64,000 nt of DNA. Origin: Thiobacillus denitrificans DSM 12475 (GTDB lineage: Bacteria; Pseudomonadota; Gammaproteobacteria; Burkholderiales; Thiobacillaceae). Under the pieces are notes generated by a model. The model was not told the DNA's origin, searched no databases, and saw only the letters and a list, made by a program, of their open reading frames with translations. Made by a program: the position numbers and the translations under genes. Shown here piece after piece: positions 5,361 through 64,000 of the stretch. Positions within the stretch are counted from its first letter, which is position 1, and each line of letters opens with the position of its first letter. The DNA is taken from NCBI RefSeq assembly GCF_000376425.1, contig NZ_AQWL01000010.1:1-64000 (forward strand), read 5' to 3'.

Positions 5361-5371
5361 CGAAGCCTTTC

Positions 5372-10750: not shown

Positions 10751-10772
10751 GGTCGGTTTCCTTTTCACATTC

Positions 10773-49000: not shown

Positions 49001-49213
49001 GGTCTTGGCGTGCTGCCGCTGGCGATCGCCACCGGCGCCGGCTCGGGTAGCCAGAACGCGATCGGCACCGGTGTGCTCGGCGGCACTATCGCCGGCACCC
49101 TGCTCGGCCTCTTCTTCATCCCGCTGTTCTACGTGGTGATCATGCGCCTGTTCAAGAGCAAGCCACAGGCGGCTGACGCAGCCTCTTCAGCGACCCAACA
49201 GGAGGCCAAGTGA
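46049..49213 (+). CDS. acrB: RND multidrug efflux pump, AcrB/MexB-type (HAE-1)
   Basis: A full-length 1054-residue proton-driven pump. The N-terminus [19 protein letters not shown] and [14 protein letters not shown] are classic. Helix 4 has [18 protein letters not shown] with the Asp pair of the proton relay, and helix 10-11 contains [14 protein letters not shown] with the Lys. The [15 protein letters not shown] segment near the end is also conserved. It exports diverse lipophilic compounds with the adaptor before it and the channel after it. The stop overlaps the channel start (TGATG). The intact gene behind a damaged adaptor suggests recent damage. Confidence 0.93.
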
Positions 49214-50610
49214 TGAGCCCGTTACGCACCCTGACCGTCGCAATTGCCGCCAGCCTCGCGAGCGCATGCACGATGATCCCGGAATACCAGCGGCCCGTGG
49301 CGCCAGTACCGGCGAATTTTCCGAATGCGCCCCAGGCAGCTGAGGCAACGCCGGCCGACGCCATCGCCTGGCGTGATTACTTCGCCGATGCCCAGCTGCG
49401 CGACGTGATTGCGCTGGCGCTCGCCAACAACCGCGACCTGCGTGTAGCCGCACTCAACATCGAGCAGGCGCGCGCGCAGTACCGCATCCAGCGCGCCGAT
49501 CTGTTCCCCACGATCGGCGCCACCGGCGAGCAGACCGCGCAGCGCCTGCCGGGCGATCTCAGCGGCAGCGGCGACGCCGATGTATTCCGCCAGTACAGCG
49601 CCACCGTGGGCTTTTCTGCCTACGAACTGGATTTCTTCGGCCGCATCCGCAGCCTCAATGCGCAGGCGCTCGAACTCTACTTTGGCACCGAAGAAGCGCG
49701 CCGCAGCGCCCAGATCAGCCTGGTGGCCGAAGTCGCCAGCATCTGGATGACACTCGCGTACGACAGGGAACGCCTGGCGCTGGCGCGCAACACCTACGAA
49801 TCGCGGCTGAAGTCCCACGATCTGATCCGCCGCAGTTCCGAAGCCGGTGCGGTCTCGGCACTCGACGTGCACCAATCGCAGCAGCTGCTGCAAAGCGCGC
49901 GTGCCGACGTTGCGCGTTTCAGCAGCTTCGTCGCGCAGGACGAGAATGCGCTGGCGCTCGTCGTTGGCGCACCGGTGCCCGCCGACCTGCTGCCCGACAC
50001 GCTCACCGACACGGTCAGCGCAGTCGCCGAATTGCCTGCGGGCGTGCCTTCCGAGGTGCTCACCCGCCGCCCCGACGTCCTGCAGGCGGAGCGCAGCCTG
50101 CGCGCGGCCAATGCGAGCATCGGCGCCGCGCGCGCGGCCTTCTTTCCGAGCATCAGCCTGACCGCCGCCGCCGGCACTGCCAGCAGCACGCTGGACGGAC
50201 TTTTCGGAGGCGGCTCCGGCACCTGGAACTTCATTCCGCTGATCCGCATCCCGATCTTCGAGGCCGGCCGCCTGCAGGCGAGTCTCGATGTGGCAGAAGT
50301 GCAGCGCGACATCAACGTGGCCTTTTATGAGAAGACCATCCAGACCGCGTTCCGCGAGGTGGCCGACGCGCTCGCCGACCGCGCCACGCTCGCCGAGCGG
50401 CTCGACGCCCGGCGCCAGCAGGTCGAGGCCACGCAGGCAGCTTTCCGCCTCGCGGAAGCGCGCTACAAGGGCGGGGTGGACAGCTTCCTCGGCCTGCTCG
50501 ATGCCCAGCGTTCGCTCTACCTTGCCGAACAGGAGCTGATCTTCGTGCGGCTGGCCGACGCCACTAATCGGGTGGCGTTGTACAAGGTGCTCGGCGGTGG
50601 TTGGCAATGA
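49213..50610 (+). CDS. OprM/NodT-family outer-membrane efflux lipoprotein
   Basis: About 465 residues. A lipoprotein signal (TLTVAIAASLASAC) precedes mature Cys-Thr-Met-Ile-Pro, the standard start of OprM-type channels. The two repeats have the typical WRDYFADAQLRDVIALALAN, NNRDLRVAALNIEQARAQY and EVLTRRPDVLQAERSLRAAN elements. It is the outer-membrane part of the RND pump encoded before it. AGGAGG precedes the start by 8 bp; the in-frame GTG one codon earlier is less likely. Confidence 0.92.
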   Translation: MSPLRTLTVAIAASLASACTMIPEYQRPVAPVPANFPNAPQAAEATPADAIAWRDYFADAQLRDVIALALANNRDLRVAALNIEQARAQYRIQRADLFPTIGATGEQTAQRLPGDLSGSGDADVFRQYSATVGFSAYELDFFGRIRSLNAQALELYFGTEEARRSAQISLVAEVASIWMTLAYDRERLALARNTYESRLKSHDLIRRSSEAGAVSALDVHQSQQLLQSARADVARFSSFVAQDENALALVVGAPVPADLLPDTLTDTVSAVAELPAGVPSEVLTRRPDVLQAERSLRAANASIGAARAAFFPSISLTAAAGTASSTLDGLFGGGSGTWNFIPLIRIPIFEAGRLQASLDVAEVQRDINVAFYEKTIQTAFREVADALADRATLAERLDARRQQVEATQAAFRLAEARYKGGVDSFLGLLDAQRSLYLAEQELIFVRLADATNRVALYKVLGGGWQ

Positions 50611-50794
50611 TAAAGGCTGTGCCCAGATAACGACGCGCAGCCCTTCGATTTTGTGTGGGCACATGCGATGCTGCAATCGGTGATTGTCCGTTTAAGGCTG
50701 GCGTTCTCCATCAACCCGTCTGCAATGAGTCGAAAATGACGATTCGGCATCTTCAGAAGCAGATGTTCCTGAATGACCGGGTGTGGAAAGTGGG
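50611..50794. other. Short intergenic stretch
   Basis: It follows the efflux operon and leads into the repeat element. No gene was recognised. No clear terminator was seen. Confidence 0.4.
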
Positions 50795-51197
50795 GACCGG
50801 CTGCTTCGGCCGATTATGTAGACCATCTGATTATGTGGAGTTGCCACAGTGAATTATCTCGGGAGCCATGTACCGTGCGGCTTTTCCAAAGTAATTGGCT
50901 GTACGAAGTCATCATAATTTCTGAAGTTTGACGGCTACCGGAAGAGGCAAGATCGGTCGTTGGTATCCCGTGGGGCCGCACAAAGACTGGTAGTGCCACG
51001 ATGATTGGCCTCCGAATGTCACCTCGACTACATTTCCATATGCTTGGTGACTTGTGGATTATGTTGACCGTGGTCTTGTCGTCACCCGTGCCAGCTAAGG
51101 TCTCAGGGTAAGCGCAGGGCATCAAGTCCACATAATCGAGGTGTCTACATAATCGGCCTTATGTGGAGCTCCACATAAGGCCGATGACCAGCCGGTC
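50795..51197. mobile_element. MITE-like or recombinase-site element with 32-bp terminal inverted repeats
   Basis: Repeats at 50808-50839 and 51127-51158 are inverted copies identical except for a 5-base block in the middle. Each contains GATTATGT(A/G)GA twice as direct repeats. Outside them, GACCGGCTG (50795-50803) and CAGCCGGTC (51189-51197) also pair. The ~290 bp between the repeats encode nothing recognisable; a 105-residue minus-strand frame spanning 50814-51131 shows no family. The doubled arms and the inverted core (see the palindrome) look like binding sites for a tyrosine recombinase. It lies between the RND operon and the Wadjet operon. Confidence 0.6.
51152..51185. repeat. 34-bp perfect palindrome
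   Basis: The left half reads ATCGGCCTTATGTGGAG and the right half is its exact reverse complement, centred on GAGCTC at 51166-51171. It overlaps the right terminal repeat of the element. TTATGTGGAG also occurs in the left repeat (50831-50840), there followed by an imperfect inverted partner. Confidence 0.85.
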
Positions 51198-51259
51198 AGG
51201 GCTATCTGGTTTATTGTCTTTCGATAGCAAAGTTCAATTTGCACATGGTATTGCGATAC

Positions 51260-51826
51260 TCACAAGTCAAGTAGCATGGCTTCTTCGCTGGAAAGCCAGC
51301 GCTTACCAAAGCACTTCGGGAAGGTACTACAGCCCCAAAAGTAACCATGCTGGCTTTCCCGCAACACCATTTTGGCGCCGCACTTGCGACATTTCTTTCC
51401 GGAGTTCTCAAGGTGGGAAAGGCAATGGTGGAAATCAATCTCGCCTGCCCTGACGGCTGAAAAGGGAAGAGTCTTTGCCTTTGAAATGAGTTCGCGCATT
51501 TCCTTTTCTGCGCGTTTTGCTACGAGGTACGGAGCGAGCTGCTCTCCAAGCTCGCCAAATCTGCAGGCGAGTTCTTGGGCGTCATCATGGGTGTGAATCC
51601 AGTCTTTCTCATCAAGAGCCTCAATGAATTCGCGTAAAGCGCTTTCAACGACATTGAGCGATTTCAAGAATTGAATAGATTCATTCGTGAAATCTGACTT
51701 GGATTGCCTGTGACTGGATCGAAGCAGGGAAAGTTGCTCGCTGATCAACGCGAGGAGCTTGTGCTCATCTGTGCATGTACTTAATGCGACCCGGAGCGAT
51801 TCAATAGTTTCAGAAATCGACATCAT
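51260..51826 (-). CDS. Topoisomerase-type C4 zinc-finger protein coupled to jetD
   Basis: A 188-residue protein with a helical N-terminal ~130 residues (SIQFLKSLNVVESALREFIE and a run of charged helices) and a C-terminal zinc ribbon like those at the end of type IA topoisomerases: Cys146 and Cys149 in CRKCGAK, then Cys166 and Cys172 in GYFWGCSTFPKCFGKRW. Such ribbons bind single-stranded or distorted DNA. It starts within the jetD stop (ATGATG), so it is translated with the Wadjet genes. It is not part of the standard four-gene set I know, so it may be a DNA-sensing accessory. Confidence 0.75.
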   Translation of the reverse strand: MMSISETIESLRVALSTCTDEHKLLALISEQLSLLRSSHRQSKSDFTNESIQFLKSLNVVESALREFIEALDEKDWIHTHDDAQELACRFGELGEQLAPYLVAKRAEKEMRELISKAKTLPFSAVRAGEIDFHHCLSHLENSGKKCRKCGAKMVLRESQHGYFWGCSTFPKCFGKRWLSSEEAMLLDL

Positions 51827-52965
51827 CTGTTTAGGAAACCAGGAACTTTACTGTCTATCTCAAGTGCAAACGGCGCAAGTAACTCAATATCCAAGGGTGA
51901 TACCTGTTCCTGGTCGACGCCTCGTGATATGCAGATATTGAGAAGCCCAGTGGCCACAGGATCGTCTTTTAAAACGGATCTTGGCATAGTTGGCTGGCGT
52001 TCTTTACTCACGGCCTTAACGTATGGATGCGATTGTGGTGGATCCCCCACTGAGGCAGCCATTGGCTTGTAGAGTGCACTGAGTTGAAGGTTGGGGATGG
52101 CCTTCCTGAGCCTCATATATATTTCGATCCCCGCTATATCAAGATCACCCCAGAAGGTGATGCTGGGGTGTTTCAAAAGAGCTTTCGCGCTCGGACACGT
52201 CGATCCCTCACGTGTCAGGGTAATCGCACCAGAAAACCGCTCTTCAACCATATTCGCGAGCTGTTTGCCGTAGTCATCCTCGGCCGTGCTGAGCCCGAAT
52301 CCGAACGTAGCGATGAAGGCACATCGGTTCACTGCCTGCGTGGATATCGCCATTTCGAAGGCGGCGGGGTTTTCCACAAGAACAACCGTTTTGGGTGAGG
52401 CGCATCCAGCAACGACGACGTATAACGGGTGTGAAGGGAATTTCTGAGGATCAATACCGAAGATCTTGAGGTGGCGTTTGGGGAGGCTATTGAGCATCTT
52501 CGATGAGCCGAGCAAGTATCTGGCACTTACAAGATAAGCGGGTTGGCCGAGCAATTTGGCTTGGTCCTGGCGGAGCCTCACGAGACCGTCTAGCAGCAGC
52601 CCCATGTCGTCCCTCGAAAGGTCTTGAATGGTGTCTGCCATAGGCAATAGCGCATCGATATCTGCTTGGCTAATCCCGCCCTTATCCTCAAGGGCAAAAG
52701 ACCAGCGCAGGACATATTCCGGGACATCCTGAACCGGTTTCGTCACCGTGATATAGCTACTGACGGGCTCTCCCCGATCATCCGAGCTGAACTCCAGATG
52801 ACCATCCTCTCGCAGTAGCATGAGTGCTTTTCTAATGGCGACAGGGTCATTGATCACCTCGGCACGCAACTTGCCCATGACGCCCTTCGTAAGGACTTTG
52901 CCAGTGGAATTGCCCTTGGTTCGTTTAAAAAACCATTGCTGAATTCTTTCCTCGAATTCAGGCAT
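51823..52965 (-). CDS. jetD: JetD-type nuclease subunit of a Wadjet system (Toprim/DUF2220-like)
   Basis: A 380-residue protein with winged-helix-like N-terminal parts and a C-terminal Toprim-like domain. The acidic residues are visible: Glu198 in VVLVENPAAFE, and Asp274 and Asp276 in ITFWGDLDIAGIEIY. JetD resembles topoisomerase VI subunit A and cuts DNA after the SMC complex has extruded a small circular plasmid. It overlaps jetC by 8 bp and its stop overlaps the zinc-finger gene. The presence of JetD marks the complex as anti-plasmid defence rather than a housekeeping condensin. Confidence 0.85.
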   Translation of the reverse strand: MPEFEERIQQWFFKRTKGNSTGKVLTKGVMGKLRAEVINDPVAIRKALMLLREDGHLEFSSDDRGEPVSSYITVTKPVQDVPEYVLRWSFALEDKGGISQADIDALLPMADTIQDLSRDDMGLLLDGLVRLRQDQAKLLGQPAYLVSARYLLGSSKMLNSLPKRHLKIFGIDPQKFPSHPLYVVVAGCASPKTVVLVENPAAFEMAISTQAVNRCAFIATFGFGLSTAEDDYGKQLANMVEERFSGAITLTREGSTCPSAKALLKHPSITFWGDLDIAGIEIYMRLRKAIPNLQLSALYKPMAASVGDPPQSHPYVKAVSKERQPTMPRSVLKDDPVATGLLNICISRGVDQEQVSPLDIELLAPFALEIDSKVPGFLNR

Positions 52966-55900
52966 TCAAGGCCTCCTCGCTTGCCATTTTGGCTTTGTGC
53001 TTGTAGGCGCTGGTGTACAAGATCACCCCGTTGCTATCCTGCCATGGCTCGACAGAGACAAACACGCGCTCCCGCCCGGGGTCACCCTTGTTGGCGACTT
53101 TCTTTTTGCCGACCAGGTGCACAGGGAAAATGTCCTTGTTGTTCACGTAATAGGGGTTGTGGATCAAGCCGATCAGTTGGAAATTGTCACCGACGCCGCG
53201 CAAGCCCTGAAATGCGTCGTTGATGTAATCCTCGTTGGACAGGTTGGAGAACAGCCCATCGAAGAACATGATTCGCTGGGCCCCCTTCAAGGCTGCTTTC
53301 TGTTCTTTCCTGGTGCTATAGAAGGATGCTGCCCGAGCGATGGCGAATTCGGCCTGCTTGATCAGCCACATCATGGCCAACGCGGTTCGTTGTCCCGTGG
53401 AGAGTCCACGATCCGTGAAGGGCACTTTTTCCATGCCGCGGATCGAGGCATGAGTAAAATACACTTTGGGCTGGATTGGGTTGTTATTTTTGTCCCGCGC
53501 AGAGAAGATCCGCCTGTAGATCGTGTCATGGATCAACTGCTTGTAGTCGGCAGCCCTACGATCGATTTCATCGTTGAGCATAAAGGCCGACCGCTCTCGG
53601 AGCGCACGTTCCTTGTCCTCGATCTGCGCGAGCAACTCGCCGATAATCCGTTCAATCTCTTGCTCGTCCGCCACGGGTGTTTCAACATGGAAGCGGGCCT
53701 TCGGGTTCTGTTTCATGACGCGATCGAGAATGTCGAGGCTTAGTTTTGCCTGACGGGCAAAACTCGCCAAGCTGTTGATCGAGGCATGCTTGTTGGTTTC
53801 CATGGCCTCACGGATCTTGTCGAGGTTGGATTCAATCTCGCCGATCTGAACCTCGATTTTGTCCCGTGTTTTCTGGATAAGTTGAAGCTGCTCGATTGTC
53901 GTCGCTTCTGCGATGGTCGAGATCTCCAGCTGATTTAGCCCCTTGATTTCGCCTTTCCGGGCTCTGTCACAGAATCCATCACGGCGGTCGACGTAGTCAC
54001 GGAAAAGCCGCTTCCTGTTCTCGTCGATCTTTTGAAGATCGGCGGTATTGATATCGAGCTCCCTGACGCATTGCGCCAGGTTGATCATTGCGGAACGGAT
54101 TTCCGTATCGATGCCGGGTGTGTCCCCAAGACAGGCAATACGGATGGTTTCGGCGTAACCTAGTATCTCCGGGTCCGTAATAGACGACGACTGCATCAGG
54201 CGAAGTATGTCTTCGGAAAACACCGCAATCTTGGCATGCTGTTCACGGACGGCGATGACCATTTCATGCATGGCTTCCATGAATGGGGTTAAGGAGCCAA
54301 TCTTGCCTTCTATTTGGGTGATTTCTTTTCCGGCCTTCTCTTCGTCGAACTTGGCGTTATCCCGTTTTCCTTGTGCCTCTGCGATGCGTTCGGCAAGACT
54401 CCGCTCTTCTGCGCGAGTGGACTGGATGTAGCGATTGGCACGATCGAACTCGATTCCTTGCAGCCGCGCCTGTGCTGCCTTGACGGCGGCATCAAGCTCC
54501 TGCTCCCGAGCAGGTGATTGCTCCATGAACCTAACGTGACCATCCATCTCAAAACGGATGGCCGTTTCGAGGTCACGCTTATCCGTCTGAAATGTCTCGT
54601 TAAGTTGGTTCAATGCGTCGGTTGCATTGGTTGCGGCCTGATTGAGTTCCCCATCCACCTGGCTCTGTAGATTGTTCACGGCCGCCTTCAGTATCTCGAC
54701 GACATGCCTCAAGGCCTCGACATCGGCTTTGGCAGTGGCAAGCGCCGTTTCACCGCCTTCCAGTAGGTAATCCTTGGCGGCATGTAGCGCGCGTATAGCC
54801 GGTTCGGAAGTCTGGCGATTCAGTTTGTCGATCCTGCCCTGGATCTGGACTTTCTCACCTTCAAGTTCCGGGATGGTCTCCTCGGCCAACTTCCTCAACT
54901 CGTCGTTACCACCGGCCTTCAGGAAGCGCTTCATGTAGGAGATTGCCTCCAGTGCTTCAGTCGAGGCGCGGCGCACGAACTCAGCGGTTTTCTGCTGGAG
55001 GTCGTCACGTCTGTCCATGGCTTCGGCGTATTTGCGCTCAGAATCGCGGCGGGTCGCTTCCTTGGCGGTTACCGCCGTAGTTACGGCGGCACTTTCCTCG
55101 GAGATGTCAGCGAGCAGCTTCCCGATAGTCTCGTTGCGTTTGGAGAGGGTACCGATCTGAGTCTGTGTCCGACTTCTTTCCTCTTTGATAAGCGATGGAT
55201 TGAGCAGGATCGCAACCTGTTGGGTATGCCGGCCCACCAGAAGTGCGTGCGCAACCTCGCCAATCTGGTGGATCTCGTCTTCACGGAGGAGGTGTTCCAG
55301 TGCCGGCTTGAAAAAAATTGGTACCGTCAGCCTGGCCTCTTCGAGCAGGCGGGTTGCTTCCCCTGCTGCTTCAAGCGACGCGATCACGGGTGCGGACAAG
55401 GCGGCTGAGAACAGCGACAGGCACTGCTCAAGGCGGGGGCCTTTCACCGTCCTAGAAGCCAGGTCGTGCAGACGCTCAAACGCAATGCCGTTCCTGCCAA
55501 GCAGTTGCAGCGCCTTGGCGTAGACCCGGTCGTCGGCCGCACCAAAGGCCGCCAGGTCTTCCAACTCACCCTCAAGGTCTTTGATCGCCTTGTTCTTTTC
55601 GATGCGTTCTTCGTTCAGTAACTGGCGCTGACTGGCTGTCTCAGAGAGCCAGGCGTCCGGGGTCATGCCGGGGTGCTGTTCACGGAAATAGCTTAGTGCC
55701 TCGGTATACGGTAGGTGCTCGGCCACCGTGCCATCTTCGATAGCGAGCGCCTCTCTGTGATTCTGGAGGTCCTTGGTCGGGTCGAGCAGCACGGGATCCA
55801 CATCGCCAAAGATTTCAAGAAACAGGCGGGACTTCGAGCGCAGATCGGAGAGCTCCTGCTTCTTGGAAGATGCACTTTGCAGGAGGCTTTGGTTTTTGGA

Positions 55901-57961
55901 TCGTGCGTCCTGCTGAGACTGCATCTCGGCATTCGGATCCAGGCTTGCAGGGTCTGCGTCTCCAAAGAAGTCCCGGAAGGCGGGCAGGCTCGCTGCCAAT
56001 TCGTTCAGCCTGTTCAGGCGTTGCTCTGCGCCTTTGAACTTCTCTTCCTCGGTTTTCTGCTCCGTCTGTTTCTTACGAAGCTCTGCCTTGGCATTGCCGA
56101 GGGCAAGGCGGGCGCTTTGATCTGTATTCGTGGCGTCAGCATGTTGCCGAACCAGCGCATCATGCGCTTCCGTTAAAGGGGTCAAGCCATGCGCTGCGGT
56201 CAAGGCTTTCCATGCCGAATATCCGGCCTGACATTCGCCGCTGCGCTTGATGTGTTCTGTATGCTCATTCCCGGCCCTGGATGATTCATCTTTTGCCCAG
56301 CTCAACGCGGCGATGGGGGACCCCCAGAATTCTTCCGGGAACTCTCCTTTTCTTGAGGCGAATGTCTCGTAAGCGATCTGGTTTTCCTTGGTCTCGCGGT
56401 TTTCCGCGGTCAGGCGCTCATGCTCTTCCTGATAGTGCGTGTAATCAGATTTGGCCGTGGCCTGTCGTGTCTTCTGAACCTTCAATTCAGCAGCAAGCAC
56501 TCGCAGGCGGGCACGGTATGGATTGGTATCGATCTCACCTGTGGTTATGCCGAATGCGCGGCTCAAGACGTCAGCGAGGCCGTTTGTTTGGGCACCTGAG
56601 AGATTGGCTGATGCTGAGACGATCGATCGCGCCTGCTCCAAGTCATAGAACTTCGTTTCATAGCGCCTGCCGCCACGGCCACCTTTTTTGAGATGATCTT
56701 TGTTTTCAATGGCTTGCGATTCATCGGCAATGTCTGCCGACGATGAGGAAAAACCATTTGAGGTTTTGAGATGATCTTTAATATCAATGAGTTGTGAGCC
56801 TACGGCAATTCCAGCGCCGGCCGTTGCTCTTCTATTGATCTCGCCGGTCGGGATGCGCGTTAGGCAGGAAAGCCCCTCATCAGTAATCAATGCCCCATGT
56901 TTCTTGTCAATGACCATGTGGGCTAAGGCCTCCATGATGCGCTTATCGCTGGCCCACTGCGTTCCTGCCGGAACCACAGGCATGCCTGGTAGTGGGGCGG
57001 CCAAGGCCAGGGAATGCACGATCGCCGCGTTCCTTGCGAGATCATTCATTACCCTGTCGTATTCCGTATTCGCGCTTACGACTTCCCCGGCTTTCTGCAA
57101 GACCGGATCGAACTTCAGCAGCGCCTGTCGTGTGTCGTCGAGTTCATTTTGGCGGCGATTGATGTCCAGCAAGGCATCGGCGGCCGGCTTCAACGTTTTG
57201 AGGATCGTGTCTTCGAATCCCTGCTCGTCAGGATCCCCTTCGGCCCCCATAGCATGCTTGAGTAATTCGGGTGCGACGAACTGCCGGAAAAACGCAGCGT
57301 CATAAGTTTCGCCACCTTCCGGCTTCACCTTGGTAACCATGGCCGAGTAGTCGCCGGCGCCCTCCAGCTGGAACTCGACGTTTTGCTTGATGACATCGAC
57401 ATTGGTGAATTGCTTGATCTCGTCCAGCCATTCCGACTGGTTTCGCCAGCGATTCCATTTGGCGCCAGGCATCCGTTCAATGGATTTTCGGAAGTCGTCG
57501 TTGGCAATGAGGGTCAATCCTTTTGGATCCTGAGTAAAACAGGGCGCGTCGTCCAAAGACCCCTGGTAGGAATAGAAGAAAGGCTCCTTGGTGCGGCTCC
57601 AGCACATGCCCATGACGTAAGTGATGCCGGGGATATCCTCGGGATCCTGGGTGATCAAATTAACCTGAAGAACATCGTCGTCATGGGACTTTTCAATGAA
57701 CTCGATCCGTATGTGGGTCCAACCACGATCTATGGGTGCGATCCGGTCTTCGACCTTGGGCTTCAGCCGGCGATCCCGACTCAGCAGGTACAGACAGGCT
57801 TCGGTCAGACTGGTCTTGCCACCGCCGTTATCGATTTGCATAGCCGTGGGCTGACCAAATAGACGAAATGTTTCGCCCCGATAGAGCGGAGTCCATTCCT
57901 TCCCTGCCATGTAGCCATCGGTGAGGAAATTGGCGACTTGAATTCGTGATATCGAAGCCAT
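52958..57961 (-). CDS. jetC: JetC/MukB-like SMC ATPase of a Wadjet system
   Basis: A 1667-residue SMC-type protein: an N-terminal nucleotide-binding half, long coiled coils from about 450 to 1480 with a hinge region around 850-950, and a C-terminal half. Walker A reads MQIDNGGGKTSL (Lys49), without the usual first Gly. The ABC signature is PFTDRGLSTGQRTALAM. Walker B reads RIMFFDGLFSNLSNED: Asp1568 is followed by Gly1569 where canonical SMC proteins have the catalytic Glu. It is longer than MukB (about 1486). It would load on and extrude DNA with JetA and JetB. Starts and stops overlap both neighbours. Confidence 0.88.
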   Translation of the reverse strand: MASISRIQVANFLTDGYMAGKEWTPLYRGETFRLFGQPTAMQIDNGGGKTSLTEACLYLLSRDRRLKPKVEDRIAPIDRGWTHIRIEFIEKSHDDDVLQVNLITQDPEDIPGITYVMGMCWSRTKEPFFYSYQGSLDDAPCFTQDPKGLTLIANDDFRKSIERMPGAKWNRWRNQSEWLDEIKQFTNVDVIKQNVEFQLEGAGDYSAMVTKVKPEGGETYDAAFFRQFVAPELLKHAMGAEGDPDEQGFEDTILKTLKPAADALLDINRRQNELDDTRQALLKFDPVLQKAGEVVSANTEYDRVMNDLARNAAIVHSLALAAPLPGMPVVPAGTQWASDKRIMEALAHMVIDKKHGALITDEGLSCLTRIPTGEINRRATAGAGIAVGSQLIDIKDHLKTSNGFSSSSADIADESQAIENKDHLKKGGRGGRRYETKFYDLEQARSIVSASANLSGAQTNGLADVLSRAFGITTGEIDTNPYRARLRVLAAELKVQKTRQATAKSDYTHYQEEHERLTAENRETKENQIAYETFASRKGEFPEEFWGSPIAALSWAKDESSRAGNEHTEHIKRSGECQAGYSAWKALTAAHGLTPLTEAHDALVRQHADATNTDQSARLALGNAKAELRKKQTEQKTEEEKFKGAEQRLNRLNELAASLPAFRDFFGDADPASLDPNAEMQSQQDARSKNQSLLQSASSKKQELSDLRSKSRLFLEIFGDVDPVLLDPTKDLQNHREALAIEDGTVAEHLPYTEALSYFREQHPGMTPDAWLSETASQRQLLNEERIEKNKAIKDLEGELEDLAAFGAADDRVYAKALQLLGRNGIAFERLHDLASRTVKGPRLEQCLSLFSAALSAPVIASLEAAGEATRLLEEARLTVPIFFKPALEHLLREDEIHQIGEVAHALLVGRHTQQVAILLNPSLIKEERSRTQTQIGTLSKRNETIGKLLADISEESAAVTTAVTAKEATRRDSERKYAEAMDRRDDLQQKTAEFVRRASTEALEAISYMKRFLKAGGNDELRKLAEETIPELEGEKVQIQGRIDKLNRQTSEPAIRALHAAKDYLLEGGETALATAKADVEALRHVVEILKAAVNNLQSQVDGELNQAATNATDALNQLNETFQTDKRDLETAIRFEMDGHVRFMEQSPAREQELDAAVKAAQARLQGIEFDRANRYIQSTRAEERSLAERIAEAQGKRDNAKFDEEKAGKEITQIEGKIGSLTPFMEAMHEMVIAVREQHAKIAVFSEDILRLMQSSSITDPEILGYAETIRIACLGDTPGIDTEIRSAMINLAQCVRELDINTADLQKIDENRKRLFRDYVDRRDGFCDRARKGEIKGLNQLEISTIAEATTIEQLQLIQKTRDKIEVQIGEIESNLDKIREAMETNKHASINSLASFARQAKLSLDILDRVMKQNPKARFHVETPVADEQEIERIIGELLAQIEDKERALRERSAFMLNDEIDRRAADYKQLIHDTIYRRIFSARDKNNNPIQPKVYFTHASIRGMEKVPFTDRGLSTGQRTALAMMWLIKQAEFAIARAASFYSTRKEQKAALKGAQRIMFFDGLFSNLSNEDYINDAFQGLRGVGDNFQLIGLIHNPYYVNNKDIFPVHLVGKKKVANKGDPGRERVFVSVEPWQDSNGVILYTSAYKHKAKMASEEALNA

Positions 57962-58743
57962 TACTTGGCCTCCGTTTCTTCTTCTGTGCGTTCGACCAGA
58001 ATCTCGGTCGCGGCGGCAAGTTGGTCTAGTGACGGCAGGAGATGTGCGAGCTGCCGGTCAAAATTGGTCTTCATCTCATAGGCGAACAACAGACTCTGTC
58101 TGTAGGCGTCTTTGTTGACCTCTTCAATTAGGCCGGCATCAAGCATCAGCTCCAGAAACGCATTACAAACCTGGGCTTCCGCCCCAGTCTTGAGGCTGGT
58201 CAATGTCTTGTACACCTGATCAACCTCCAGGGTGCCAGGGTCGATCTTTCTGACCTGGTCATTCAGATAGTCTTTGACCGCATCGATGAAAACCTCTTTG
58301 GTGAAGGTCGTGTCCACCCAATCCTGCATAGCATTGGGGCTCCGGTTTTTGCGCGTGTAAAGCAGATCCAGCAGCACAAACCAGAGTTGGGTGAACCAGG
58401 TCTTTGCCTCCGCATCATTATTGATCCCGCGCACTTGCAGCATGCGGCTCACTAGCCGTTCTGTTCCCCAGAACGGCGGGGCTGAATCAGGCTTCCTGGC
58501 CAGCATGAACACCGTGGCGCCGGATGCGATACCTTTGACATCGAAGGACGTAAAAGCCACCAGTTGCAGGCCTTGGCCATCTAGGATCTCTTCAAATTGT
58601 CTGCGCATGGCGAAATCCGCGTCGCGCAGAAGGGTTGCTATCTCGCGCTCTTCCCTGCTGACATTGCGGCGGCCAGATTTGGTTTCGATGAAGCGATGGC
58701 GCAGCAAATAGGCATGGACGCGCCCCATATCCGAGTTATTCAT
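57961..58743 (-). CDS. jetB: JetB/MukE-like subunit of a Wadjet system
   Basis: A 260-residue protein of mixed helices and winged-helix character. HAYLLRHRFIETKSGRRNVS lies at the N-terminus and VYKTLTSLKTGAEAQVCNAF further on. It has no enzyme motif. By position between jetA and jetC, and by size, it is the MukE/kleisin-associated subunit that bridges the SMC heads. Its start overlaps the jetA stop (ATGA) and its stop overlaps the jetC start (TAATG), so synthesis is tightly coupled. The family (DUF4194- or DUF6063-like) cannot be fixed by eye. Confidence 0.75.
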   Translation of the reverse strand: MNNSDMGRVHAYLLRHRFIETKSGRRNVSREEREIATLLRDADFAMRRQFEEILDGQGLQLVAFTSFDVKGIASGATVFMLARKPDSAPPFWGTERLVSRMLQVRGINNDAEAKTWFTQLWFVLLDLLYTRKNRSPNAMQDWVDTTFTKEVFIDAVKDYLNDQVRKIDPGTLEVDQVYKTLTSLKTGAEAQVCNAFLELMLDAGLIEEVNKDAYRQSLLFAYEMKTNFDRQLAHLLPSLDQLAAATEILVERTEEETEAK

Positions 58744-60104
58744 GTTTTCTCCACTGCGGTTATTTCGATGTCCGTGAACAAGAGCTCACCGTCCCCAGCA
58801 GCTTTTGTGTCAAGGGTGGGGCTGACGCCGATCAAGATGCTGGACTCGATGGGGATGCTGCTTGGCGCCACGAAAATGCCAACCAGGTCACCCAGCATCA
58901 TCTCCTCGTCCACCATGAACCAGCCTCTTTCAATGGCTTCGGACAGGCGCAGCGGCCCGACCTTGAGTGCCGAAGCGATGTCGTGCCCGTGCTTTTCCAG
59001 AAACCTCGCTTTGCCGAGAACCGAGATTGGCTCCACCGTTTCATCCACGAAGGTCATGGCAGGAACCGACTCTGCCAACGTGCGCAGCTTCACCGCGCCC
59101 AGACCATCGAGCGACGAATGAAATGGCGTTTCCAAGCTGAGTGCTCCCCACTGTGCAAGCAGAAATCCCTCTTTACCAAGCTTGAGAGGTGACCTGACGA
59201 AATGTGCGGCGACATCAACAAATGAGGGCGGCGGCACGGCCGAACGGGCTCCTTGTAGAGCCAGGCTCACCAACTCGGATAGGAGCCGGTTGAAGATCAC
59301 CAGCACTTGCCGCACATGGTTGATCTGGTTGCGCAGGTGTTCGAAGGTGATATCCAAATCGGCCAATTCTTGCCAGCGTTCGAATGCTTCCAGAACTTCG
59401 CTTTTTTCCAGTTGTGCTTCCGCTTTCTGGGCTATGCCAATCGTCTCTTCAATGACCTGCTTGTATTGATCCAGGCGGTTTAGGTACTTATCAATGCTCT
59501 CCGTTCGGCCGACACGCTCCAGTGCCGACCGAACTTCAAGGATCTCGTTTCTAAGTTGGCTGATGATCCCGTCCGAAAAGGTGAGGATTTTCGGGAAATC
59601 GTAAAATTCGATAGCGTGCAGCAGGTTGTAAGCGTCTCCACGCAAATACGTGGCATCACGGGCCACGTTCGCGAGAGAAAGCAGCATCCGGCCAGATGCC
59701 GACAGCCTGTATTCGTCGGCATAGTCGGTCTTTTCGATCAGCGCAGTCTCGCGCTTCTCAGAATGGCAAACTTTGGCTTGATGGCCGGCAACGCTCGTGA
59801 GGTAAAAAAGCTCTGAAGGACGCCGCAAGACATTGAGGACATATTGCACATCCACCTCGGCCACATCTGGCCGGTCTTCGTGAATAGCGTTAAATATGAC
59901 TGTAAACGGCAAGTAGTCCTGGCTTGCACTTTGATCCAGTAACTTCAGGCGATGGACTATGTGCAGGGCAATGTCGAGATAAACACCGTCAGAGTTACCC
60001 GTTCTCGACTCGCGTGTGTAGTTGGGCGGATTACCATACGCACGATCGCTGTCGTGAAGATCGACCAGCCTCAGAGTAGAAGCAATTAGTGGGATCCACT
60101 CCAT
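58740..60104 (-). CDS. jetA: JetA/MukF-like kleisin subunit of a Wadjet system
   Basis: About 454 residues from the ATG at 60104. An N-terminal winged-helix-like part (VYLDIALHIVHRLKLLDQSA and PFTVIFNAIHEDRPDVAEVD) is followed by a helical bundle with long coiled stretches (EILEVRSALERVGRTESIDK) and a C-terminal beta-rich part. This layout fits a MukF-like kleisin that closes the SMC ring. The start is uncertain: the frame stays open to 60266, inside the regulator gene, a GTG is possible at 60113, and no ATG choice has a strong ribosome site. Family assignment rests mainly on position before jetB and jetC. Confidence 0.7.
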   Translation of the reverse strand: MEWIPLIASTLRLVDLHDSDRAYGNPPNYTRESRTGNSDGVYLDIALHIVHRLKLLDQSASQDYLPFTVIFNAIHEDRPDVAEVDVQYVLNVLRRPSELFYLTSVAGHQAKVCHSEKRETALIEKTDYADEYRLSASGRMLLSLANVARDATYLRGDAYNLLHAIEFYDFPKILTFSDGIISQLRNEILEVRSALERVGRTESIDKYLNRLDQYKQVIEETIGIAQKAEAQLEKSEVLEAFERWQELADLDITFEHLRNQINHVRQVLVIFNRLLSELVSLALQGARSAVPPPSFVDVAAHFVRSPLKLGKEGFLLAQWGALSLETPFHSSLDGLGAVKLRTLAESVPAMTFVDETVEPISVLGKARFLEKHGHDIASALKVGPLRLSEAIERGWFMVDEEMMLGDLVGIFVAPSSIPIESSILIGVSPTLDTKAAGDGELLFTDIEITAVEKT

Positions 60105-60222
60105 CAGGGACACGCTATTGCATTGGTTAATAAATCGCAGGATTTTCTTGGCACTTCCTGCATAAACTCTCTTGTTGAAGCCAGCTTTCTGAACAGAAGA
60201 GAGACGGCAGCGCCGCCGGTCC
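60105..60222. other. Leader between the WYL regulator and jetA
   Basis: In the jetA frame this stretch is open and reads SSVQKAGFNKRVYAGSAKKI and on, which looks protein-like. JetA may therefore start upstream of 60104 with a non-ATG codon. No separate gene is seen. Confidence 0.4.
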
Positions 60223-61101
60223 CTAGCGGTTGAACAGCCACTTGGACACCTCCCGTGCGTTCTCAACGGCGATCAGGTAATCGGGGGCATGCTGGGTTTG
60301 CGTGTCCATCGCCGCGCGGACGTCCTGGATGAAGTAGGGGACCAGCGCCGCCCGGCACGTTTCCACACGGCTCGCGGTCCCTCTGAAGTATTCGGCCTGA
60401 ATCACCCTCGCCTGTTCGGGCGACAACTCCGGGTGAGCGACCAGGCGTACTGTGACTTTGGTGTTCCAGGCAAGGTCGTCATAGCGGTTGCGATTGGAAA
60501 TCTGGGCCAGAGGTTTCACCTCGATGATTCGCCCCAGCGCGTAATCCCGGAATTCCTGATGGGGCTCGCTGTAGGCGCGCACATGCCAGCGACGGCCGGC
60601 GAGAACCAGGCTGTGCGGGTAAATCACGCGGCGATGTGGAGCGGGCTCGCTCAGGGACATGTACTCGATGTCGACGGCCTTGGACTGTCGGATCGCGGTC
60701 CCGAGACAGGAGAAAATCCTGGGCGACGGGGCAGTGATGCTCGGTACGGCGGACCACATCACTCCCTCACCTTCGTTCATGGCCGATGCATACGGAAGGC
60801 CGACCATGGACAGGTATTTTGAGAGCGATTCAGAAATTTCGGCCTGAGAAGCCTTGGATTTGGCGAACCGCTTGTAGCAATCAGCCGTTGCGTTATAGCT
60901 TCTGGATTTGCTGTCCCACTGCATCCAGGTGGGATTCAGATCGCGGATTTCCTTGATCCACTGGCTAGACCGGGGAAGACCGATGCCGAATAGTTCGCAT
61001 ACCCGCGAACGGTAGATGCGTCCTTCCCAAATCAAAAGCAGTTCAAGTAAAGAGAGGCGTTGCTGTGGGCTGTCGTTCCGCTGGTCCATGTGCTTGTCCA
61101 T
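60223..61101 (-). CDS. WYL-domain transcriptional regulator of the Wadjet operon
   Basis: A 292-residue regulator: N-terminal winged helix (LSLLELLLIWEGRIYRSRVC then LFGIGLPRSSQWIKEIRD), a middle WYL domain (VDIEYMSLSEPAPHRRVIYP and the strand RRWHVRAYSEPHQEFRDYAL), and a C-terminal WCX-like extension. Such BrxR/CapW-type proteins repress defence operons and release on a nucleic-acid or nucleotide signal. An inverted repeat with 9-bp arms overlaps its start codon, suggesting autorepression. It is the first gene of the operon on the minus strand. Confidence 0.88.
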   Translation of the reverse strand: MDKHMDQRNDSPQQRLSLLELLLIWEGRIYRSRVCELFGIGLPRSSQWIKEIRDLNPTWMQWDSKSRSYNATADCYKRFAKSKASQAEISESLSKYLSMVGLPYASAMNEGEGVMWSAVPSITAPSPRIFSCLGTAIRQSKAVDIEYMSLSEPAPHRRVIYPHSLVLAGRRWHVRAYSEPHQEFRDYALGRIIEVKPLAQISNRNRYDDLAWNTKVTVRLVAHPELSPEQARVIQAEYFRGTASRVETCRAALVPYFIQDVRAAMDTQTQHAPDYLIAVENAREVSKWLFNR

Positions 61102-61125
61102 ATGTTATGGAAAAATATAACATAT
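61100..61125. promoter_or_regulatory. Inverted repeat at the WYL start, probable operator
   Basis: ATATGTTAT (61100-61108) and ATAACATAT (61117-61125) are perfect 9-bp arms with an 8-bp spacer (GGAAAAAT), in the AT-rich region upstream of the WYL regulator. The first arm overlaps the start codon at 61101, so binding would block both transcription and its own translation start. Confidence 0.65.
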
Positions 61126-61399
61126 ATATTCTTATAACACTTATTTTGCGTGATGTCGTGAAGTGGTCTACACGTAGCCGGAACTGTGTGACGACAGGCT
61201 CTTCATCCGCCAAAGGAGTCTCTTGGCACGAAATCTTGGAAGACCCGGTTACGCAGCGCTTCATGAGGCGCGCTATGGGTGGTAGGTCAGGAATGTATCG
61301 ATTGCCCGAGCAGATAGAGCAGCTTGCAGCTCATGAACTGGTGTTGTGTGGATAGAATACTGGACGGGCAGATACGAGCCCCTCACTGAGGTTTATTGC
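61126..61399 (+). other. Region between WYL and SRAP genes with a doubtful small frame
   Basis: A plus-strand frame ending at 61355 reads VSWHEILEDPVTQRFMRRAM and then RSGMYRLPEQIEQLAAHELV, which looks protein-like. It has no good start or ribosome site and its upstream part overlaps the WYL operator. I do not recognise a family. It may be a remnant of a small gene. Confidence 0.3.
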
Positions 61400-62065
61400 A
61401 TGTGTGGACGTTATGCGCTCAAGACTCCCGCCAGCGAGCTGGTTGCTAGGTTCGGTCTTGACGAGTCCGAGGATTTCCCAGCTCGCTACAACATTTCGCC
61501 CGGCACGGACATCCCGGTTATACGCCAATCACCGGAAGGCAAGCGTGTGCTACACCTGCTGCGCTGGGGGTTAGTTCCACATTGGGCCAAGGATCCAGCC
61601 ATTGGCGCCCGCCTAAGCAACGCCAGAGGCGAAACTGTGGCCGACAAGCCCCTCCGTGACGCCTTCAAGCGCCGGCGCTGTCTCGTGCCCGCCGATGGCT
61701 TCTATGAATGGAAAACTGAAGGCCGCAGCAAACAGCCGTATTATTTCGGTATGCGCGCTGGCGAGGCCTTCGCGTTCGGTGCCATCTGGGAGTCATGGCG
61801 TGCGCCTGACGGCGACATTTTTCGGACGTGCTGCCTCATCACGACAGGGGCGAACGAAATCATGGTGCCAGTTCACGACCGGATGCCGGTGATCATTGCT
61901 CCCGTGCAGTACGAGGCTTGGTTGTCCGCTCCACCGGTGGATGCCTTCGCACTTGTAAAACCCTTCCGGGCTGAAGCGATGCAGGCTTGGCCAGTAAGCA
62001 AGCGTGTCAGCCGTTCGGCCGAGGAAGGCGCCGATTTGATCGAGCCCCTTGCGACGACCGAGTAG
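61400..62065 (+). CDS. yedK: SRAP/YedK-family abasic-site DNA-protein crosslink protein
   Basis: About 221 residues. The catalytic Cys2 follows the start Met directly (MCGRYALKT). The other active-site elements are ARYNISPGTDIPVIR with the Asn, PADGFYEWK with the Glu, and a later VHDRMPVII with the His. SRAP proteins (HMCES in humans) form a thiazolidine crosslink with abasic sites in single-stranded DNA and protect them. The ATG at 61400 is required because Cys2 must become the N-terminal residue. It is often associated with SOS genes; a umuC remnant faces its 3' end. Confidence 0.93.
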   Translation: MCGRYALKTPASELVARFGLDESEDFPARYNISPGTDIPVIRQSPEGKRVLHLLRWGLVPHWAKDPAIGARLSNARGETVADKPLRDAFKRRRCLVPADGFYEWKTEGRSKQPYYFGMRAGEAFAFGAIWESWRAPDGDIFRTCCLITTGANEIMVPVHDRMPVIIAPVQYEAWLSAPPVDAFALVKPFRAEAMQAWPVSKRVSRSAEEGADLIEPLATTE

Positions 62066-62068
62066 AGA

Positions 62069-62224
62069 TTACCGGACGATCGCCACCTGCTTCCATGAGC
62101 TGGTATACGCTGGCGAGACATTCCCTCGTTTCATTGCCCAAGGTCTGGATTGATTCGCTACCGCCAGGCGAACAGAATCACGCCCCATCCGGTCATTTAT
62201 GTCATCGAGCAGCCTTGGCAGCCC
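62069..62224 (-). pseudogene. umuC: umuC C-terminal remnant
   Basis: About 50 residues on the minus strand match the end of the DNA polymerase V subunit UmuC: LDDINDRMGRDSVRLAVANQ, then RPWAMKRGNVSPAYTSSW, ending before a TAA at 62069-62071. The polymerase body is missing. The fragment faces the SRAP gene tail to tail with three bases between stops, so the deletion that removed the rest lies to its right, before the RpoN-like gene. Confidence 0.7.
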
Positions 62225-62392
62225 CCGTTGAAAGACGGGGAACGGTCGACGCACCGGCTAAGCTCCCGCATTGAAAAGAATATTCTTGAATCCAGCTTTG
62301 CTGGGTCCCGGAACCCCCCGTAGACAAACACTCCCGAGTCATCGATCATCCCGTCTCTCCGCAGGCTTAGCAGAAGAAGAACCTCAAACATT
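62225..62392. other. Junction region upstream of the RpoN/GIY-YIG gene
   Basis: No gene was recognised. The frame of the downstream gene is open back to a TAG at 62321 and reads SIIPSLRRLSRRRTSNILSA just before the chosen start, so the protein may extend upstream with a non-ATG start or a frameshift near the C6 run at about 62314-62319. Confidence 0.4.
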
Positions 62393-63649
62393 TTGTCGGC
62401 GGGACAGCGCTTGCAGCACCACAATAACAATATCGACGCCGCACTGCTCGGCAAAATCATGCTCGCCCGTTTTCTGGAGTTGCCGCTGCGGGCTTTCGAC
62501 CGCCTCGTGACCCAGACGGAGTCATCCATCGGGTTTAACGCACTGCGCCCTTGGGTCACCGTCGGGCGACTGGAAGATGCACGGGTGGTGCATGATGCGG
62601 CCGGCATACCCCAAGCCAAAGCATCCCCGATCCTGGGAGAAATTCACGAGGCGGGCCAGAACCTGATGTTCCTTTACCATCGCAACAGTTATGCGCGTGA
62701 GTACCGGTTCGACGAAGAGGGGATGAACCGCCTGATGGCACGCGAGGAAACCCCCAGAGATTTCACAGGGACGTTACATAGGCTACGCCTCATCAATACC
62801 CGGAACCGGCTCACCCATGCACTGATACAGGCGGTGCTGGTATCACAAGCGGCGTATCTGCGCTCCGGGCAAGCCTTGTCGCTCATCGCCCTGACCCAGG
62901 CGGAGACTTCCAGCCGGCTGCGGTCGGAGTCGAATCTTTCCGTGGTGGCGGATCCTGGCCGGATCTCCCGGCTGGTGCGTGGATTGTCGATTGCGCTGGC
63001 AAACGGGAAAGCGGTGCCGTTAAGCACCCTGTTCCCGAAACCGCGGCAAGTTCATTGTCATTTCGTGGATCATCTGATAAAAACAGAAAAAACATTTGTA
63101 GAAGAAGGGTTAATTCGGGGGCCGCTGACAGACGAGGCTATCGCCGCTATCCTCAAGCGGGAACATGGCATCCGGTTGTCGCGTCGTACAGTGGCCAATA
63201 TTCGGCATGACTTGGCGATTCCCGATTACAAGCACCGCAGCCAGCGCACGGATTACCTGGCCGCGACCGAGGGGTTTTCCGCTCTGGTGCCGCTGACCGC
63301 TCAAGCACTGCGGACTGCGGTTCCGGCTCATTCCGGCGTGTATGAGATCAGGACGCTTTTCACTTTCCGCCTCAGTGGTGAAGAAAAGAACTGGCCGGGG
63401 AAAAGTGTGCCGGTCGTGCCGCATGGCGTGGTCTATATCGGATCGGCCGGTGATTTGCGCAAGCGCCTCGGCGACCACCTGCGAGGCAGCAGCGATAATG
63501 CGCTGCTGTATCGTCACGTGGCCGACGGCGCCGCGCGGGTGCGGTTTCGCCTGGTGAACGAAGGCTGGCGTTGGGTGGAGCGTGAGTTGTACCGGGTGTT
63601 TTGCGAGACGTTCGGCGAGCCGCCGCCATGTAACCGCATGAGTCCTTAA
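62393..63649 (+). CDS. Sigma-54 (RpoN)-like protein fused to a GIY-YIG nuclease domain
   Basis: A 418-residue fusion. Residues 15-55 (LLGKIMLARFLELPLRAFDR) recall an RpoN N-terminal helix, and 145-215 (QAAYLRSGQALSLIALTQAE then ISRLVRGLSIALANGKAVPL) recall the core/HTH region. Residues 245-282 hold LTDEAIAAILKREHGIRLSR then RTVANIRHDLAIP, matching the RpoN-box domain that reads the -24 element. From 314 comes a GIY-YIG domain: GVYEI, VVYIGSAGDLRKRLGDHL with the Arg, WRWVERELY with the Glu, and a final CNRM with the Asn. All the usual GIY-YIG residues are present. Sigma-54 does not normally carry a nuclease. The TTG start at 62393 is provisional. Confidence 0.75.
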   Translation: MSAGQRLQHHNNNIDAALLGKIMLARFLELPLRAFDRLVTQTESSIGFNALRPWVTVGRLEDARVVHDAAGIPQAKASPILGEIHEAGQNLMFLYHRNSYAREYRFDEEGMNRLMAREETPRDFTGTLHRLRLINTRNRLTHALIQAVLVSQAAYLRSGQALSLIALTQAETSSRLRSESNLSVVADPGRISRLVRGLSIALANGKAVPLSTLFPKPRQVHCHFVDHLIKTEKTFVEEGLIRGPLTDEAIAAILKREHGIRLSRRTVANIRHDLAIPDYKHRSQRTDYLAATEGFSALVPLTAQALRTAVPAHSGVYEIRTLFTFRLSGEEKNWPGKSVPVVPHGVVYIGSAGDLRKRLGDHLRGSSDNALLYRHVADGAARVRFRLVNEGWRWVERELYRVFCETFGEPPPCNRMSP

Positions 63650-64000
63650 AACGATATAAAGCAGTTAACCACGAGGTTCATGGGGGATGATCAAAGCCGT
63701 ACGTGTGAATACTTGCATCCGCGGTAAAGCGGTTTGTTCACGAAACATATTGATTGTTTTCTGTGCTCCCTGTGAACCTCGCGCAGCCACACGATAACCT
63801 TCCGCGCGCGGAGCACTCTGAAGGGCATAAAGGCCAGGGTGGGTACGGTCATGGCGAGAGCGATGATCACTATTCGGTACGGCGCTATCGCCATGGCCGT
63901 TATAAGGAAGCGCGCAGCCCGTCGATATATCGATATATCATGCATCCAAATCCAGCACTACCCGAACCGATTTCGGGCACTTAAGAAATGAACAAGAACA
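63650..64000. other. Terminal stretch without a recognised gene
   Basis: Short frames on both strands (for example a hydrophobic minus-strand one at 63691-63945) look like chance translations of intergenic sequence. The only clear structure is the 16-bp palindrome at 63924-63939. Confidence 0.4.
63924..63939. repeat. 16-bp perfect palindrome GATATATCGATATATC
   Basis: A perfect AT-rich palindrome made of two GATATATC units. It could be a protein-binding site, but no gene start is visible beside it in this window. Confidence 0.6.

Follow-up and report, generated by a model that had tools for sequence, protein, structure and literature searches.

A Wadjet-like operon of Thiobacillus denitrificans whose JetC-like SMC protein has glycine in place of the expected Walker B glutamate

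The window analysed here, the first 64,000 nucleotides of contig NZ_AQWL01000010.1 of Thiobacillus denitrificans DSM 12475 (RefSeq assembly GCF_000376425.1), contains a unit of six genes encoding a WYL-domain regulator, the presumed JetA, JetB, JetC and JetD of a Wadjet-like structural maintenance of chromosomes (SMC) system, and a protein with a zinc (Zn) ribbon (Table 1). The original prediction had described these six minus-strand genes as one unit and had drawn attention to the last of them as a fifth gene coupled to the Wadjet set. The unit is indeed present, and the starts overlap the preceding stops from jetA onward as predicted, by 4 bases (jetA/jetB), 1 base (jetB/jetC), 8 bases (jetC/jetD) and 4 bases (jetD/Zn-ribbon gene) when read from the coordinates; the WYL gene lies outside this coupling, its stop being separated from the jetA ATG by 118 bases. 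All genes have an ATG start and a single stop; for jetA the ATG at 60104 was taken, which is conserved in the alignment, the longest open reading frame (ORF) opening at a TTG at 60266. The operon was compared with nine related loci, so that ten clade loci were read in total (the window, L002, L003, L004, L005, L009, L016, L017, L080 and L081), of which L002, L003, L004 and L005 are close relatives with JetC identities of 70%, 81%, 62% and 62% from records labelled Proteobacteria, Hydrogenophilales, Thiobacillus denitrificans and Pseudomonadota. In 4/4 close relatives examined, jetB and jetC again overlap by one base (TAATG or TGATG), and nine of the ten loci retain the order jetA-B-C-D, which indicates that the coupling is not due to chance. 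The feature that sets the clade apart more tellingly than the fifth gene is the missing catalytic glutamate of JetC, which the original prediction did not mention.

Table 1. Genes of the Wadjet-like unit and motifs of its JetC protein, in window coordinates
Feature	Position	Strand	Remarks
WYL-domain transcriptional regulator	60223-61101	minus	292 aa; first gene of the unit
jetA	58740-60104	minus	454 aa from the conserved ATG; presumed kleisin
jetB	57961-58743	minus	260 aa; presumed KITE subunit
jetC	52958-57961	minus	1667 aa; JetC-like SMC ATPase
jetD	51823-52965	minus	380 aa; JetD-like Toprim nuclease
Zn-ribbon (fifth) gene	51260-51826	minus	188 aa
JetC Walker A, residues 45-51 (NGGGKTS)	57809-57829	minus	N45, G46, G48, K49 and T50 invariant in 8/8 aligned sequences
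JetC Walker B D1568-G1569, Gly at the expected catalytic Glu	53255-53260	minus	D-G in 11/11 clade sequences
JetC H1601 in switch-loop-like GLIHNP	53159-53161	minus	His in 11/11 clade sequences

In all ten loci jetC is a single open frame of 1520-1669 codons, and the window protein carries a Walker A motif (NGGGKT), a signature motif (LSTGQ), a Walker B motif (FFDG) and a switch-loop-like GLIHNP. In ABC ATPases the residue following the Walker B aspartate serves as general base and a histidine of the switch loop contacts the gamma phosphate, this histidine being the linchpin in a model for ABC transporters. The clade retains the lysine and threonine of Walker A, a signature of the LSTGQ or MSEGQ kind and the Walker B aspartate, and has lost the glutamate: Walker B continues as D-G-L-F-S in 11/11 JetC sequences (ten full-length and a plasmid remnant in L015), whereas D-E-A is read in 9/9 references, that is, in E. 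coli MukB, one type II JetC (L068) and seven JetCs of type I, of which L034 is assigned by PADLOC score, L030 and L031 by PADLOC type I models that score JetA, JetB and JetC of L030 and JetC of L031, and L033, L035, L036 and L037 by a DUF3375 JetA. Type III is not represented in this set. When the C-terminal ends of JetC were aligned with hhalign, FFDGLFSNLSNE fell on type I VIDEAFGRGSDE (probability 16%, E 0.0016), so that FFDGLF is placed on VIDEAF at low overall probability, and comparison with type II and with L030/L031 gave below 1% probability; residues 1396-1547 matched type I JetC at E 2.4e-4 and 44% probability. MAFFT likewise aligned D-G to D-E across 18 rows of JetC ends, the alignment being gapped beyond Walker B. 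About 30 residues past Walker B a histidine follows in 11/11 clade JetCs (GLIHNP, GLIHNT, GFIHNP or GMIHHP), but not in the nine references, which read IVTP, VATP, IITP, MASP, VAMP, ITSE or IAAP at the place matched by eye; in L033, L034 and L035 a histidine lies some six residues beyond that place. In JetC of the clade, the N-terminal head is followed, ahead of the coiled coil, by a variable region (residues ~325-490 in the window); part of it resembles a helix-turn-helix by eye (ITDEGLSCLTRIPTGEINRRA), and no Pfam domain model covering it scores over its cut-off.

The original prediction could not place the subunits in types I-III by eye, and PADLOC did not assign JetA, JetB or JetC to any of the three types either, JetD alone of the Jet genes being recognised. 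The only PADLOC matches in the operon are those of JetD (best JetD1 PDLC00527, E 1e-15) and of the WYL protein (two models, 9.8e-16), JetA, JetB, JetC and the Zn-ribbon protein remaining without any match at a cut-off of E 1. In Pfam, JetD matches JetD_C PF09983 (29.4 bits, cut-off 22) and the regulator WYL PF13280 (53.5 bits, E 2.4e-14, cut-off 21.8), no family scores over its cut-off for JetA, JetB or JetC, and in NCBIfam this holds for every operon protein. JetA finds no family at E 1 in PADLOC, Pfam or NCBIfam, and JetB none in PADLOC and just chance matches below cut-off in the other two. By contrast, PADLOC recognises 9/9 control proteins, taken from the type I loci L034, L030 and L031 and the type II locus L068, with the models of their own kind, and even the lowest of their top scores, that of JetB of L030, reaches E 2.4e-77. 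Thus, the window JetA, JetB and JetC fail at E 1 the type I models that those of L034 and L030 match at E 2.4e-77 or better. They equally fail JetA2, JetB2, JetC2 and TIGR02680 at E 1, the type II positive control being JetC2 alone (L068, E 0), and JetA3, JetB3 and JetC3 at E 1, for which no type III positive control turned up (0/120 genomes, nothing in 14 control genomes). Seven of eight further clade proteins (JetA, JetB and JetC of L081 and L016, JetC of L009) went without a Jet match at E 0.1, the eighth, JetD of L081, matching JetD1 at E 8.4e-18. Since the profile libraries thus recognise only one of the four Jet genes of this clade (in the window and in L081), they may overlook loci of plasmid defence. 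Neither a fourth type nor variants of Wadjet were found in the literature searched, mainly open-access papers with few preprints or subscription journals.

The motifs ENxxxF (E198), WGDxD (D274, D276) and DQE (E353) are present in 10/10 JetD rows, nine chromosomal and one from the plasmid locus L015, and hhalign matched the clade JetD to the JetDs of L034-L037 with 70%, of L030 with 84% and of L031 with 95% probability, one of the eight clade rows used (L015) being in the wrong frame with 18 stops. The best matches of the JetD profile among PDB sequences, both at the DxD segment, are MksG (8b7f, E 0.062) and JetD(E248A) (8q72, E 0.074). In a JetD tree the ten clade rows fall on one side of a weakly supported branch (74/39) under a long-branch warning, and no conclusion was drawn from it.

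JetA and JetB are presumed to be the kleisin and the KITE protein, respectively, and their position, size and conservation hold in 10/10 clade loci. Several results weigh against the Wadjet-like reading. The lack of matches in PADLOC and of Pfam or NCBIfam scores over cut-off leaves the kleisin and KITE assignments without profile evidence, a search of PDB sequences up to E 10 returned no Jet, Muk or kleisin chain for either protein, and hhalign gave no signal against type I or MukF/MukE, with one of the ten JetB rows (L080) mis-framed and one type I JetA row (L036) holding 1 stop. Furthermore, the loss of the catalytic glutamate is unexpected in a loop-extruding motor, L017 has JetA, JetB and JetC, which occur in 10/10 loci, but lacks the JetD present in the other nine, and no plasmid- or phage-resistance data were found for the clade. 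The hhalign comparison of JetA and JetB is a weak test, since it finds no match even between two branches of type I, those with DUF3375 and DUF5716. The AlphaFold 2 model of JetB, for which five JetB sequences were used, is of low confidence (mean predicted local distance difference test score, pLDDT, 49); its N-terminal order of helices and strands is like that of a winged helix. Foldseek returned no match for this model at E 0.001 or better, and the lower-ranking 8i13_F (Smc5/6 chain, rank 3, probability 0.38) and 5hvq_C (MAGE-G1/NSE1, rank 8, 0.47) were not counted as evidence. The IFDR motif named for JetB (PMC10586767, in excerpt) is absent from 10/10 clade JetB rows, one of them mis-framed, and equally from 6/6 references, and decides nothing. 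A Wadjet-like defence function is quite probable, and the operon is likely, though with less assurance, to be a chromosomal Wadjet-like SMC set whose clade is separate from types I-III as defined by the PADLOC models. The idea of a variant subtype is upheld as far as a Wadjet-like system outside the known types is concerned, with JetD the only Jet gene seen by PADLOC and JetD_C by Pfam, and is not supported where the fifth gene was to define it.

The JetC protein was found in 3/300 genomes of the order including its own (2/299 others), an eight-row profile in 3/369 genomes of the class including its own (2/368 others), and a JetC profile matched 4/398 genomes of the phylum, one of them weakly and not a JetC, so that 2/397 others carry a clade JetC; genomes may be shared between the three sets, each of which counts the own genome once. 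The weak phylum match, in G389, was rejected (E 3.8e-4 over 100 residues inside a 657-aa ORF). As a yardstick, DUF3375 (type I JetA) occurs in 8/60 genomes of the order, and DUF2397 (type II JetA) in 0/100. A related WYL gene accompanies four of the ten clade loci, on the same strand in the window and L003 and divergently in L009 and L080, and a WYL gene also adjoins the type I loci L030 and L031. On plasmids, tblastn with three clade JetCs found truncated pieces only, in two near-identical P. aeruginosa megaplasmid records among 72,556, and the type I yardstick occurs in 18 records (12 at 80% coverage), so that rarity alone may explain the scarcity of the clade there. None of the phages searched carries the window JetB or the L009 JetC, and no viral contig matched the JetC alignment. 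The plasmid locus L015 (13205-15972, on the 490-kb conjugative P. aeruginosa plasmid pPUV-6) holds truncated JetC pieces with a D-G Walker B together with an open JetD, with mer genes and a transposase gene of the Tn3 family nearby. In L017 (G588, 4823-12111), jetA, jetB and jetC stand without jetD among neighbours that by eye resemble those of the complete locus L016, where none of the four is missing; this may be a MksBEF-like loss of the nuclease.

The fifth gene encodes a helical N-terminal part followed by a topoisomerase-I-type Zn ribbon (C146, C149, C166, C172), which is matched by Zn_ribbon_Top1 PF01396 (41.3 bits, E 1.3e-10, cut-off 32). In its AlphaFold 2 model (mean pLDDT 62) the ribbon is paired by Foldseek with topoisomerase I chains of the PDB at a probability of up to 1.00 but at E 0.25, no match reaching E 0.001 or better. 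A Med11 match to the helical part (28.3 bits, cut-off 26.9) was regarded as a helical coincidence. The helical part in combination with the ribbon suggests a DNA-binding helper. The gene is intact in two of the ten loci, the window and L004 (68% identity), persists as a 64-residue remnant in L003 (75%) and was not found in the remaining seven, the five distant members as well as L002 and L005, of which the latter two show no trace of it. A defining role of the fifth gene is thus not supported: the original prediction had named absence of the gene from close relatives as a refutation, and of these L002 and L005 lack it, L003 retains a remnant and only L004 has it whole. The gene is an occasional companion, not a core part. 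It may even be independent cargo that landed beside jetD and is neither subunit nor helper, a possibility we take seriously while holding it to be short of probable: besides its patchy occurrence, it is separated from jetD by 20 bases in L003 instead of the overlap seen in the window, the L003 copy stops where unrelated DNA starts and an integrase-like ORF is nearby, and in L004 a transposase-like ORF (ISL3-type by eye) intervenes. Against this, the gene lies on the same strand and after jetD in 3/3 loci that have it (in L004 after the transposase-like ORF), and comparison with L004 (dN 0.20, dS 1.39, with 43, 26 and 88 differences at the three codon positions) shows that it has been maintained under purifying selection. 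Moreover, when 200 genomes of the order were searched with the protein, 53 had matches, and among the matches listed all but the own copy fell within residues 128-183, the ribbon, mostly in ORFs of more than 650 aa and thus of topoisomerase-like length, so that the N-terminal part was not found elsewhere among them; plasmids and viral contigs gave no match at all. On balance, we lean slightly toward the Zn-ribbon protein acting with the complex.

The leading model for Wadjet is total extrusion, in which an ATP-hydrolysing SMC motor reels in a whole small circle and then fires JetD (PMC10586767, in excerpt). For the present operon it can be proposed that the WYL regulator would control expression, that a JetC dimer with JetA, the presumed kleisin, and JetB, the presumed KITE protein, would form a ring-shaped DNA sensor, and that JetD, with its metal-binding residues intact, would cut DNA once this sensor has recognised a small circular molecule. 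The Zn-ribbon protein would be an accessory of optional occurrence, probably DNA-binding, that may adjust loading or target choice. While gene content, coupling, conservation, the JetD motifs, the D-G and the histidine can be read from the sequences, we infer the subunit folds, the plasmid restriction, catalysis by the histidine and this accessory role. The ATP cycle of JetC would be unlike that of other Wadjets, with glycine in place of the usual general base, and any turnover would lean on the invariant H1601 or another residue; alternatively, the complex could work by ATP binding. That JetC still hydrolyses ATP seems to us marginally favoured, the switch-loop-like histidine being the candidate catalyst. 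The combined proposal, a fourth Wadjet clade with a motor that lacks the catalytic glutamate and either hydrolyses ATP by way of the histidine or recognises circles by ATP binding without loop extrusion, is put forward tentatively, with slightly more doubt than belief. If it is true, the clade would allow the need for extrusion in sensing DNA shape to be tested on a natural system; a conserved clade in which all JetCs read lack the glutamate also offers a natural variant on which the requirement for hydrolysis and for extrusion can be examined.

An alternative is that JetC hydrolyses little or no ATP and that an ATP-bound clamp senses DNA by binding and releases JetD, following a Lamassu-like logic. 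The replacement of the glutamate by glycine in every clade JetC would fit such a clamp, for which LmuB is a precedent, generally having glutamine at this position and possibly low or no hydrolysis (PMC10586767, in excerpt). JetC of L009 also has weak LmuB matches (E 0.0025 and 0.03), which carry little weight because type I JetCs score LmuB higher (E 7.9e-11 to 1.7e-9). The effector and gene order are, however, Wadjet-like, with a Toprim JetD and not LmuA/LmuC, and a clamp gives no obvious reason for the invariant histidine past Walker B, so that we regard it as unlikely. It is more doubtful still that the system is repurposed or decaying, with JetABC serving chromosome organisation like MksBEF while the nuclease is being lost: L017, set among neighbours like those of the four-gene L016, would be such a case, but JetD is kept in 9/10 loci with its motifs intact in all nine, the conservation of the JetC and JetD motifs across six family labels (f1, f5, f15, f60, f199, f260), with JetD missing from one f60 genome only, speaks against decay, and an acquired defence module accounts better for the patchy distribution and for the low GC content of the window operon. 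Equally improbable is that the operon belongs to type I, II or III in the ordinary way and is missed by the profiles through divergence alone. Although JetD scores best with a JetD1 model, the hhalign match of JetC to type I is not nil and no type III sequence could be compared, a type I and a type II JetC each match the PADLOC model of the other type (E 7.3e-7 and 4.5e-5) while the window JetC matches none at E 1, 3/3 further clade JetCs lack a JetC model at E 0.1 in a library that includes JetC3, and D-G with the following histidine sets the clade apart from all nine references.

The surroundings of the operon differ from it in base composition. Its GC content is 54.6%, whereas the 10.6 kb at lower coordinates have 65.0% and the sequence at higher coordinates has 57.9%, and the drop from 65.0% suggests that the operon was horizontally acquired. 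No Rfam family was matched in 48000-64000, and no tRNA was found across the whole window. The GC content jumps at the 3' edge of the operon, and there positions 50808-51185 contain a 36-nt inverted repeat of 83% complementarity enclosing 279 nt, as well as a 34-nt perfect palindrome whose core occurs once in the own genome within 2 mismatches. Similar sequence is present in 14 plasmid records, and in two of three of these that were inspected it adjoins three adjacent tyrosine recombinases. A 28-9 bp inverted repeat and a palindrome flank recombinase in trio (RIT) elements (PMC3414803, in excerpt), and 50808-51185 looks like the end of such an element; no recombinase ORF was noted beside this repeat in the window. 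On the other side of the operon lie an SRAP (HMCES-like) gene (61346-62065) and a 418-aa ORF (62393-63649) with a match to the sigma-54 DNA-binding domain (PF04552, E 5.4e-9) and a C-terminal part that is GIY-YIG-like by eye.

Compared with known systems, the clade shares with MukBEF and MksBEF an SMC protein with two partner genes, and the JetABC-only L017 resembles MksBEF by content, whereas E. coli MukB reads FLDEAA at Walker B and neither JetA with MukF nor JetB with MukE gave a profile match (with the one mis-framed JetB row). With Lamassu it has in common that the catalytic Walker B glutamate is replaced, but by glycine and not by the glutamine of LmuB, and it differs further in its Toprim JetD effector and in a JetC more than twice the ~650 aa of LmuB (PMC10586767, in excerpt); among the PADLOC Lamassu profiles at E 1, LmuB does not match the window JetC and no other operon gene matches Lamassu. 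Wadjet type III is similar in the length class of JetC (the JetC3 model PDLC00589 has 1486 positions) and its JetD3 models match the window JetD weakly, but JetA, JetB and JetC match no Jet model, the comparison with this type being made via profiles only. Type II, the set of DUF2397, DUF2398, TIGR02680 and DUF2399, shares the logic of an SMC protein plus a Toprim protein and a long JetC; however, the window JetC finds no TIGR02680 or JetC2 at E 1, and the sole type II JetC read (L068) has LLLDEAF. For this type a structure from Neobacillus vireti is cited (PMC12647877, in excerpt). Type I (JetABCD, also MksBEFG or EptABCD) agrees with the clade in the four-gene order, in the E, DxD and E residues of the JetD Toprim domain, in an SMC protein with Walker A and signature motifs, and, in L030 and L031, in the WYL neighbour. 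By contrast, its JetC is shorter, with 1120-1234 aa in the seven references against 1520-1669 aa in the clade, its models match none of the window JetA, JetB and JetC, and where type I reads D-E at Walker B, the clade reads D-G with a histidine after it.

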